Virus record (IMG/VR): IMGVR_UViG_3300010042_000003
Location: 1-44,739 of that record
Direction: 5' to 3' (one strand)
Origin: a virus
Length of the DNA: 44,739 nt
Made by a program: the position numbers and the translations under genes. Position 1 is the first letter of the stretch, and each line of letters opens with the position of its first letter. Of this stretch, positions 32,149 through 35,117 are shown one piece after another. Under the pieces are notes generated by a model. It was not told where the DNA came from. It did not search any database and saw only the letters and a program-made list of their open reading frames with translations.

Positions 32149-33027
32149 ATGAGAAAAGCTAAAATCGATCAAAAAGCAATATTTTCAAAATTCAAAATAG
32201 ATCCGTCTTTTGATTTAATTTCGAAATATAATCCTGTAATCGCATGGTGGTCTGGCGGACTAGATAGTGCAATTGTTTGTAAACTGTGTATCGATAAATT
32301 TGGAAGAGAAAACGTAAGAATAGTTTTTATCGATACTAAAAACGAAGATCCGGATACTTATCGCTTTTTAAAAGATTGTGAAAAATGGTACGCTTTAAAA
32401 ATAGAAACTATATCTTCAAAACAATACAGCAGTATAAAAGAAGTTTGGCGGGAATTTTTATCGCTGAATGTCGCTACAGGTGCTATTTGCTCAAGCGAAT
32501 TAAAACGAGAAGTTAGAATCGCATTCGGTAAAAAAAACGCATTTAGTTATCAAGCTTTTGGCTTTGATAAAAAGGAATTGAAACGCGCTAATGGTATGCT
32601 TAAAAATTATTATTTCATAAAACCTATTTTTCCATTAATTGAAAAAGGTTATTCTAAACAAAATTGCCTCGATTTATTAAATTTCGCAGGTATAAAAATA
32701 CCCGTAGTCTACTCTTACGGATTTCACAATAACAACTGTTTTAGAACTGGATGCGTACAGGGCGGGGTAGGATATTGGCAAAAAATGAAATTGGATTTCC
32801 CAGATAAATTCGATGATATGGCGCTTATGGAACATGAGTTAACTAATGAAAAAGGTATTCCCGTAACTATCCTAAAGGATCAGTCTAAAATTTCAAAAGG
32901 CCTGGTATTTTTAAAACCTCATCCAGACTACCCGGGCGTTAAAGATATATCTATGATGAAAGGTGTAACTATAAAACCGCTTGCTGAATGTAACGGTTTC
33001 TGTAATAAAGAAAACTTTCCATCATGA
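32149..33027 (+). CDS. PAPS-reductase-like PP-loop protein
   Basis: 292 aa. The PP-loop SGGLDSA at residues 35-41 (after IAWW) and VFIDTKNEDPDTYRFL identify the PAPS reductase / adenine nucleotide alpha-hydrolase superfamily. Cysteines in GAICSSELKRE, CFRTGC (about 197-202) and CNGFC (about 281-285) could bind a cluster or take part in sulfur transfer. It overlaps the cytosine methyltransferase start by 4 bp, so the two are co-translated. Phage members are usually uncharacterised; DndC-like DNA sulfur chemistry is possible but unproven. The DNA looks more A/T-rich than the methyltransferase gene. Confidence 0.82.
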   Translation: MRKAKIDQKAIFSKFKIDPSFDLISKYNPVIAWWSGGLDSAIVCKLCIDKFGRENVRIVFIDTKNEDPDTYRFLKDCEKWYALKIETISSKQYSSIKEVWREFLSLNVATGAICSSELKREVRIAFGKKNAFSYQAFGFDKKELKRANGMLKNYYFIKPIFPLIEKGYSKQNCLDLLNFAGIKIPVVYSYGFHNNNCFRTGCVQGGVGYWQKMKLDFPDKFDDMALMEHELTNEKGIPVTILKDQSKISKGLVFLKPHPDYPGVKDISMMKGVTIKPLAECNGFCNKENFPS

Positions 33028-34370
33028 GACACGGCTCTTTATTCAGCGGCACGGGGGGATTTGATCTCGCAGCTCAGTGGACGGGTTGGGAGAATGTTTT
33101 TCATTGTGAATGGAATCCTTTCGGACAAAAAATATTAAAATATTACTGGCCAAACGCCGCAAGTTATGACGACATCACAAAAACAGACTTTACCAGATAC
33201 AGAGGGAAAATTGACATTCTTACAGGCGGATTCCCCTGCCAGCCATACAGCACAGCAGGAAAGCGACGAGGTAAAGAAGACGATCGCCACCTCTGGCCGG
33301 AAATGCTTAGAGCAATTCGGGAAATCCAGCCTAAATGGGTCGTGGGCGAAAACGTTTCCGGTATTATTAGTTGGGATGGCGGGCTGGTATTCGAAGAGGT
33401 GCAAACTGATTTGGAAACTGAAGGTTACCAGGTACAACCGTACGTACTTCCAGCTGCAGGCATCGGCGCACCGCATAAAAGAGAAAGAGTCTGGTTTATT
33501 GCCTACCGTGCAGACGCAGGGATTAAAAGTATGCAACGATCAGGGGAAAACGGAATTCATGGATTTGAAACTTCTTCCCACACCACAAGCGATAGACGGG
33601 AACGGTTCGGGGCGGGATCTTCGCCTGAAGACAGGCAACAGAGATCCGCAGAGTCCGGGGAGTTGGCGCGGCGATCTGAAGGATTTTGCGCACCTGGGTT
33701 TGCTTCCGACACCAACGGCTTCGGAGGGCAGAGAAACCCCGGGGTCGGGAGTTCCTTTTGTTACAGCGACAGGAACTGTCAGGCGCCGGAACTCGGACGG
33801 TACATCATCTCAGATGGGCCTGATAGCAACGGTAAAACACATGCTACCAACCCCAACGGCACAGGACTTCAAACGCCGGGGGCCGAACAGCAGACAGCAG
33901 GGCCTCAGCAATACGGAGAACTGGCTACACCTGCTACCAACACCAACGAACTCAATGGTGACCTTTCAGGACTTCATACAAGCGGGATTTCACAGCAGCA
34001 AGCGGCCTATTTACTCGGAGATCAAGCGGCCGTCCTTGTTGCCGACACCGACGGCAACTTCGGATGCGAAAGGGGGTTGCATCCGGACAGATCCGAAGAG
34101 ACAAAACGACACGTTAGCCCATGCGATACACGCTTATACAGGCGGGGAGACTGGGAAAAGTTCCCAACTCAATCCGGCGTTTGTTCTGGAAATGATGGGC
34201 TTTCCGCCAGACTGGACACTGCTGCCCTTCTTAACGGGCAAAAAGCACGTGGAAACTGGAAGCCTTTCAGCAAATGGCGAGCAGAATCAATAAAAGCCGC
34301 CGGGAACGCCATAGTTCCACAGGTAGCTTACCAGATATTCAAAGCAATAGAAATGTATCAAAAATTATAA
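33024..34370 (+). CDS. dcm: DNA (cytosine-5) methyltransferase
   Basis: 448 aa. Motif I: SLFSGTGGFDLAA. Motif IV: FPCQPYS with catalytic C72. Motif VI: ENVSG (E109). Motif VIII region: GIGAPHKRERVWFIAY. Motif X: GNAIVPQ (427-432). Between about residues 175 and 400 lies a low-complexity region with recurring A(S/D)TN-G and TNPNG segments in place of a normal recognition domain. This is exactly where a second long frame (33166-34293) overlaps. It methylates cytosine in DNA, probably to protect against host restriction. The gene symbol is generic. Confidence 0.9.
   Translation: MRHGSLFSGTGGFDLAAQWTGWENVFHCEWNPFGQKILKYYWPNAASYDDITKTDFTRYRGKIDILTGGFPCQPYSTAGKRRGKEDDRHLWPEMLRAIREIQPKWVVGENVSGIISWDGGLVFEEVQTDLETEGYQVQPYVLPAAGIGAPHKRERVWFIAYRADAGIKSMQRSGENGIHGFETSSHTTSDRRERFGAGSSPEDRQQRSAESGELARRSEGFCAPGFASDTNGFGGQRNPGVGSSFCYSDRNCQAPELGRYIISDGPDSNGKTHATNPNGTGLQTPGAEQQTAGPQQYGELATPATNTNELNGDLSGLHTSGISQQQAAYLLGDQAAVLVADTDGNFGCERGLHPDRSEETKRHVSPCDTRLYRRGDWEKFPTQSGVCSGNDGLSARLDTAALLNGQKARGNWKPFSKWRAESIKAAGNAIVPQVAYQIFKAIEMYQKL
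33166..34293 (+). CDS. Nested +1-frame protein inside the cytosine methyltransferase gene
   Basis: 375 aa, completely contained in the methyltransferase gene in the +1 frame, with no stop over 1128 nt. It is not random: it has ATSGRKCLEQFGKSS near 41-55, LIWKLKVTRYNRTYFQLQAS near 81-100, and six spaced LLPTP-type motifs (about 111, 136, 179, 226, 256, 291). It ends with LNPAFVLEMMGFPPDWTLLP (335-354), which resembles the motif-IX-adjacent segment of C5 methyltransferases. I recall homologous sequences from Bacteroidota elements. It could be a partner or recognition subunit. Expression is not proven. Confidence 0.65.
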   Translation: MTTSQKQTLPDTEGKLTFLQADSPASHTAQQESDEVKKTIATSGRKCLEQFGKSSLNGSWAKTFPVLLVGMAGWYSKRCKLIWKLKVTRYNRTYFQLQASAHRIKEKESGLLPTVQTQGLKVCNDQGKTEFMDLKLLPTPQAIDGNGSGRDLRLKTGNRDPQSPGSWRGDLKDFAHLGLLPTPTASEGRETPGSGVPFVTATGTVRRRNSDGTSSQMGLIATVKHMLPTPTAQDFKRRGPNSRQQGLSNTENWLHLLPTPTNSMVTFQDFIQAGFHSSKRPIYSEIKRPSLLPTPTATSDAKGGCIRTDPKRQNDTLAHAIHAYTGGETGKSSQLNPAFVLEMMGFPPDWTLLPFLTGKKHVETGSLSANGEQNQ

Positions 34371-34586: not shown

Positions 34587-34622
34587 TTATGAGGTGTGAA
34601 AAACTTGATAAAAATTAAGTCT

Positions 34623-35117
34623 ATGAAAGGTAAGATAATACTTGATGCCTGTTGCGGAAGTAAAATGTTTTGGTTTGACAAAACTAATCCTAACACCTTA
34701 TTTGCCGACGTAAGATCAAAAACACATACTTTGTGCGATGGGAGATTATTAGAGATTTCCCCGGATGTTGAGCACGATTTTAGAAATATGCCTTATCCAG
34801 ATAACAGTTTTAAAATGGTGGTGTTTGATCCACCGCATCTTTTGAAATTAGGTAAAAATAGTTGGATGGCTAAAAAATACGGTATCTTAAACCCTACATG
34901 GGAAATAGATTTAAAAGCCGGGTTCGATGAATGTATGCGGGTTTTAGAACCTTTTGGTACTCTGATTTTCAAGTGGAACGAAAACCAAATAAAAATAGGA
35001 CAGGTTTTGAAATTAATCCAATACGACTATAAGCCTATCGTCGGGCACCGTTCCGGCAAATCTGGTGATACGCACTGGTTAGTTTTTATGAAAGGCTTAC
35101 AAAATGGAAAAGCTTAA
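34623..35117 (+). CDS. Class I SAM-dependent methyltransferase (DPPH type)
   Basis: 164 aa from the ATG at 34623; an in-frame GTG at 34596 is possible but less likely. Motif I-like ILDACCGSKMFWF at residues 5-17, FADVRSK as an acidic loop, MVVFDPPHLL with DPPH at 69-72, and the C-terminal HRSGKSGDTHWLVFMKG all match a common phage methyltransferase family. The DPP-type motif suggests methylation of an exocyclic amino group (adenine N6 or cytosine N4), but the substrate is not certain. It overlaps the next gene by 14 bp. Confidence 0.85.
   Translation: MKGKIILDACCGSKMFWFDKTNPNTLFADVRSKTHTLCDGRLLEISPDVEHDFRNMPYPDNSFKMVVFDPPHLLKLGKNSWMAKKYGILNPTWEIDLKAGFDECMRVLEPFGTLIFKWNENQIKIGQVLKLIQYDYKPIVGHRSGKSGDTHWLVFMKGLQNGKA

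Follow-up and report, generated by a model that had tools for sequence, protein, structure and literature searches.

A viral C5 cytosine methyltransferase gene with a second, selected reading frame that probably encodes a subunit of the same enzyme

Two nested reading frames at one locus

The window analysed here, the whole 44.7-kb viral record IMGVR_UViG_3300010042_000003, carries on its + strand an outer open reading frame (ORF), alpha (33024-34370, frame 0, 448 aa), and, entirely within it and in the +1 register, an inner ORF, beta (33166-34293, 375 aa). An earlier note on this DNA had proposed dual coding at these positions, and both ORFs were recovered there, with conservation and selection of the inner frame documented below. 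The longest stop-free +1 run within alpha spans 384 codons, a length matched in one of 5000 synonymous-codon shuffles of alpha (shuffle mean 142); the longest +1 runs measure 33-169 codons in ten single-frame C5 methyltransferases and at most 95 codons in 16 other genes of the window. The G+C content is ~0.55 over the overlap versus ~0.28-0.40 around it.

Alpha matches the catalytic domain of PF00145 over residues 1-175 (E=1e-47), with GGFPCQPYS (PCQ motif) and GENV (ENV motif) present. Beta matches the phrog_1008 profile over residues 15-190 (E=8.5e-35), and its N-domain contains the invariant columns L68, W74, L81, W83, R92 and L97. No family match for beta was found in Pfam or NCBIfam, and comparison of a beta profile with Protein Data Bank (PDB) sequences returned only chance matches. 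Many beta homologs begin with QxSLF (N-terminal consensus KQTSLFTE), which we take to resemble a sliding-clamp binding motif; the beta of the window (KQTLPDTE) lacks it.

Conservation of the nested pair

A search of viral sequences with the inner protein returned 80 loci, in all of which a beta homolog lies in the +1 frame of a methyltransferase ORF; in five of them the outer frame contains a stop. The corresponding genome search returned 65 loci, almost all from Bacteroidota and nearly all nested likewise, and the +1 register was found in 160 of 164 overlapping ORF pairs. Remoter nested pairs, their +1 frames closing with a similar type of motif IX, were detected in Paenibacillus phages, a Lacticaseibacillus plasmid and Escherichia phage K1ind1, so that the conservation in Bacteroidota suggested in the earlier note holds and extends beyond that phylum. 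No beta homolog outside an alpha frame was found in the viral and genome searches.

In five loci from Bacteroides elements (L132, L133, L136, L137 and L085, the last adjoining conjugation genes), alpha contains several in-frame TGA codons and beta is fully open. Two of these TGAs fall at conserved Trp positions (AAE-W-MGW and FSR-W-RQAS), and no TAA, TAG or frameshift precedes the terminal TAA, suggesting that alpha may still be read in these loci; either TGA is decoded as Trp or alpha is decaying.

Selection on the inner frame

In the +1 register, the third codon position of alpha is the second codon position of beta. Silent-site entropy was measured at four-fold degenerate alpha codons whose residue (Gly, Ala, Val, Thr or Pro) is conserved, with sequence weights applied in this analysis only; the pairwise statistics given below are drawn from related sequences and are descriptive only. 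The entropy was 1.73 and 1.76 bits at the two ends of alpha that beta does not cover, versus 1.24 and 0.61 bits within the overlap (Mann-Whitney p=6e-6), revealing the synonymous constraint across homologous loci that had been suggested as a check on dual coding. The silent freedom of conserved alpha codons is reduced only where beta overlaps. The alpha A144 codon is GCT in 100% of ~95 effective sequences, yielding beta L97, and the codons for G392 (GGG, 100%) and T382 (ACT, 99%) are similarly frozen. Along the motif IX segment, the pattern of divergence normal for alpha codons is inverted, with a value of 0.063 at alpha position 3 (beta position 2) versus 0.177 at alpha position 1 (beta position 3). 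These patterns indicate that beta is under selection as a protein frame and is not a by-product of alpha. The earlier note had named two findings that together would refute dual coding: inner-frame homologs confined to methyltransferase frames, which is what the searches returned, and a lack of purifying selection in the inner frame, which is present.

Distribution of methyltransferase motifs

Ten single-chain C5 enzymes were used to build a canonical profile of motif IX, whose best score was 0.3 in alpha and 3.7 in beta of the window. Beta outscored alpha in 120 of 128 loci, and in 114 of the 128 the profile landed on the SQLNPxFVxEMMGFP segment of beta. Conversely, a profile derived from beta scored highest at motif IX in 8 of 10 single-chain enzymes. 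Alpha has no motif IX between its variable region and motif X, the place it occupies in single-chain enzymes. The view of the outer frame as bearing the complete C5 motif set, with an unrelated passenger nested inside, was therefore mistaken: the PF00145 match ends well before the C-terminus of alpha, and motif IX is missing from alpha and present in beta. Since beta has the motif that alpha lacks, the two proteins are probably subunits of one enzyme.

Streptococcus phage P0092 provides a contrast. There, motif IX has been retained in alpha; only a short +1 frame devoid of the motif is present, and beta is lacking. A nested 'DNA methyltransferase' is annotated inside this alpha (P0092 gp45, L217:1427-1846); it has no motif IX, and the annotation looks spurious.

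A shared library of cassettes in beta

The variable part of beta is made up of successive cassettes with LPTP anchors at their boundaries (Table 1). Loci draw on a shared cassette library, with 957 cassette pairs at least 60% identical, and five of the six cassettes of the window recur in other loci. In 130 pairs the cassettes are at least 75% identical even though the N-domains of their proteins are less than 60% identical. Library cassettes occupy ordinal positions 1-7. Within cassettes, differences at beta codon positions 1, 2 and 3 amount to 0.225, 0.166 and 0.475, and amino-acid identity is 0.77 in beta versus 0.435 in alpha; the beta-type substitution pattern persists when pairs are picked by alpha identity. 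Cassettes are thus exchanged and reordered among phages and are under selection as beta sequence, and the alpha frame across them is nearly unconstrained. The LPTP/ADT repeat described in the earlier note is present, and its DNA is indeed common to both products; the substitutions follow beta codons, making the repeat meaningful in beta, and strong selection is seen only in that reading. The cassettes are probably target-recognition modules that choose the DNA sites to be methylated.

Table 1. Features of the alpha/beta locus in the window, and related loci with a stop insert (numbers prefixed with L denote compared loci)
Feature	Position or loci	Strand	Evidence
Alpha, C5 cytosine methyltransferase subunit, motifs I-VIII and X, no motif IX	33024..34370	+	PF00145 E=1e-47; phrog_363 1.4e-70; motif IX profile without site
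Beta, nested +1 protein: N-domain, cassette array, motif IX	33166..34293	+	phrog_1008 E=8.5e-35; conserved +1 register; silent-site constraint
Alpha Pro71-Cys72-Gln73, catalytic PCQ motif; in the window (CCC TGC) without insert or stop	33234..33242	+	sequence
Beta conserved N-domain, beta residues 41-110, over alpha motifs IV-VIII	33286..33495	+	invariant beta columns; fixed alpha A144 codon
LPTV anchor, cassette 1 (QTQGLKVCNDQGKTEFMDLKL), LPTP anchor	33499..33585	+	cassette also in L095 (90%), L086 (86%)
Cassette 2 (QAIDGNGSGRDLRLKTG...DFAHLGL) and LPTP anchor	33586..33714	+	also in L016, L009, L002, L086, L027, some at other ordinals
Cassette 3 (TASEGRETPGSG...KHM) and LPTP anchor	33715..33855	+	LPTP-bounded; no partner among loci compared
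Cassette 4 (TAQDFKRRGPNSRQQGLSNTENWLHL) and LPTP anchor	33856..33945	+	85% identical in L010, L032, L039, L087, ordinals 1-4
Cassette 5 (TNSMVTFQDFIQAGFHSSKRPIYSEIKRPSL) and LPTP anchor	33946..34050	+	also in L028, L091, cultured Bacteroides phage BKO1-TP3
Cassette 6 (TATSDAKGGCIRTDPKRQNDTLAHAIHAYTGGETGK)	34051..34158	+	86% identical in L001, 75% in L006
Beta motif IX, QLNPAFVLEMMGFPPDWT	34165..34218	+	reciprocal motif IX profiles; hhalign's only match (weak)
Alpha motif X (AAGNAIVPQ), just 3' of beta stop	34296..34322	+	sequence; silent sites free, mean entropy 1.76 bits
Stop-insert loci	L002, L053, L060, L073, L151-L177		in-frame stop splitting the alpha PCQ motif after its Pro

The 3' end of a PAPS-reductase-like gene (32149-33027, + strand) overlaps the start of alpha, and a PAPS-reductase gene also lies near the alpha/beta pair in the cultured Bacteroides phages BS-TP4 and BKO1-TP3. 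Downstream, a small ORF with a DPPH-type motif and no Pfam match (34596-35117, + strand) looks like a SAM-dependent methyltransferase.

A stop at the catalytic motif of alpha in related phages

In the five viral loci with an interrupted outer frame, the stop directly follows the Pro of the alpha PCQ motif and precedes the catalytic Cys. Pattern scans brought the number of viral loci with such an insert to 27 (23 non-redundant), the window not being among them. The stop, which may be TAA, TGA or TAG, always heads an insert of 6 or 9 nt within GGFP-CQPYS. Scans that dropped the stop requirement detected no stop-free insert of 6 or 9 nt at this site in a methyltransferase; the 17 other matches to the pattern are not methyltransferases. 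The 6-nt stop-insert pattern had no occurrence in 395 Bacteroidota genomes, and a DNA search found no named phage with the pattern. On an alpha tree of modest support, the trait requires at least six changes by parsimony.

The 22 alpha codons that follow the Cys, located upstream of the first alpha start in most loci, show the codon periodicity of alpha (0.16/0.11/0.53) and, in the stop-insert loci, an identity of 84% in alpha versus 41% in beta. Alpha is hence evidently read past the stop. The codon ahead of the stop is CCT, CCG or CCA, never CCC, and the codon ahead of TGY is always YYN, a pattern partly imposed by beta's own codons at that site. Reassignment of the stop codon was ruled out by the use of all three stops, and reinitiation at an NTG beside the stop was ruled out as a source of alpha because the resulting frame is short (4-44 codons). 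Tandem stops in three loci (L174, L176 and L177) speak against readthrough. No strong RNA structure was detected at the stop (mean z of -0.2 downstream and -1.07 upstream against mononucleotide shuffles).

These observations are compatible with a natural in-frame stop hop at the active-site motif, an account to which we give even odds. In such a hop, peptidyl-tRNA-Pro would detach from CCN, pass over the stop and pair again at the YYN just ahead of TGY, crossing a gap of one or two codons and restoring GGFPCQPYS exactly, with no additional residue. A more doubtful alternative is that alpha is inactivated in these relatives, or that a prfB-like +1 frameshift fuses its N-terminus to beta, without any hop. 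The sequence GGN-GGG/GGC-TTC-CCN-stop-C does resemble the prfB frameshift site, and the +1 frame there is that of beta, but the codons beyond the stop are conserved as alpha, which argues that alpha is decoded past it, and CCG and CCA, found in 13 of 23 loci, would be poor at +1 re-pairing. In-frame stop hopping has been shown in synthetic constructs, and a 2016 review knew of no natural occurrences (PMC5009743). If the stop-hop account is correct, the stop-bearing relatives would represent a natural case, placed at an enzyme active site and inside a dual-coding gene.

Proposed model and alternative explanations

The division of motifs between alpha and beta matches that of the two-polypeptide enzyme M.EcoHK31I, and the locus is accordingly read as a nested heterodimeric C5 cytosine methyltransferase, with both subunits encoded in the same DNA, cassettes that choose the targets and an anti-restriction role, a reading to which we assign a probability of roughly 0.8. 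Alpha would supply the large catalytic domain, with motifs I-VIII and X, its segment over the cassettes serving as a near-neutral linker. Beta would supply the small-domain function through motif IX, the conserved N-domain and the LPTP-bounded, target-picking cassettes. The paired subunits would methylate the phage's own DNA at cassette-chosen sites, probably enabling escape from host restriction, and the exchange of cassettes between phages would lead to protection of different sites.

Several observations weigh against this reading. The alignment of beta with single-chain enzymes by hhalign matched the short motif IX alone and is statistically weak (E=0.17). AlphaFold2 models of beta alone, from alignments of 52 and 35 sequences, were of low confidence (pLDDT of 54 and 50), and a Foldseek fold search with the beta model gave no usable match. 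Beta expression is predicted only; the position of the beta ATG agrees with the aligned column in 62 of 114 loci, and the Tyr48 codon favours TAT over TAC (72:19 versus 147:113 elsewhere, p=1.4e-4). Furthermore, the predicted target-recognition domain (TRD) of M.EcoHK31I lies in the large subunit (PMC3404938), and the selected variable part of the present locus lies in beta.

This last point also lends some plausibility to a different, rather unlikely view of the cassettes, as recombination scars or flexible spacers with specificity residing in alpha or in the beta N-domain, as does the fact that the cassettes yielded no fold. Spacers, however, would not be expected to show the strong selection for beta protein sequence observed in the cassettes, where the alpha frame is hardly conserved, and cassettes remain 75-93% identical where N-domains are 37-60% identical. 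It is less probable still that beta is an independent protein, such as a regulator or an anti-restriction factor, overprinting a complete methyltransferase by chance. The Bacteroides element loci with an open beta and several TGAs in alpha fit that possibility, but the TGAs include conserved Trp sites, with no TAA, TAG or frameshift, so that alpha may still be read; motif IX, moreover, is in beta and not in alpha, and the P0092 alpha, with a motif IX of its own, has no beta. Finally, that beta is a conserved shadow, kept open and seemingly conserved only by alpha codons and repeats, is very improbable: beta does sit over conserved alpha motifs and has no homolog outside an alpha frame, but silent sites of alpha are frozen to the base that beta requires, substitutions in the cassettes and in the motif IX segment show the codon periodicity of beta, and long +1 frames are absent from single-chain C5 enzymes.

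Outside small viruses, two selected frames sharing one strand for more than 1 kb are rare; here the arrangement recurs across many phages. The nested heterodimeric enzyme would explain two families labelled 'DNA methyltransferase' as the halves of a single protein complex. If the cassettes set specificity, phages would be swapping recognition modules within a gene whose second frame has to remain open, and metagenomes could be used to read off a recognition code.

Comparison with known systems

M.EcoHK31I recognises YGGCCR, and M.EaeI is a comparable two-polypeptide system. Lee et al. (1995) reportedly described the small subunit of M.EcoHK31I as encoded within the large gene in a different frame, as beta is in alpha; beta is about twice as long as that subunit because of its LPTP cassette array. 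The large subunit of M.EcoHK31I contains motifs I-VIII and X, and motif IX is found in the smaller polypeptide (PMC3404938), the same split that is observed between alpha and beta. The present locus differs in that it belongs to a phage and has no recognised restriction enzyme as a neighbour, and in having its selected variable region in beta instead of a TRD in the large subunit, for which reason it is filed as an M.EcoHK31I-like variant and not as a strict member.

Among annotated families and phages, phrog_363 (alpha) and phrog_1008 (beta) bear the same label, which is silent on the shared DNA and on the role of beta. Genes 56/57 of Paenibacillus phage Bloom and ORF29/ORF28 of Escherichia phage K1ind1 share the +1 nested ORF, WPTP-like anchors and motif IX; they differ in having fewer cassettes and are annotated without a mechanism. 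The multispecific C5 methyltransferases of Bacillus phages (M.SPRI, M.phi3T) carry several exchangeable recognition modules in one chain and one frame. The cassettes found here are exchangeable, and as candidate recognition modules they reside on a separate, nested subunit.

The stop-bearing relatives share with the bypass of T4 gene 60 and with synthetic stop hops (PMC5009743) a stop right after the putative take-off codon, a near-matching codon beyond it and the resumption of coding. They differ in that the gap consists of a stop, or a stop and one codon, instead of 50 nt, in being natural and in overlapping a second gene. Beyond the M.EcoHK31I precedent, the nested pair thus adds a library of beta cassettes and, in related loci, a stop at the PCQ motif.
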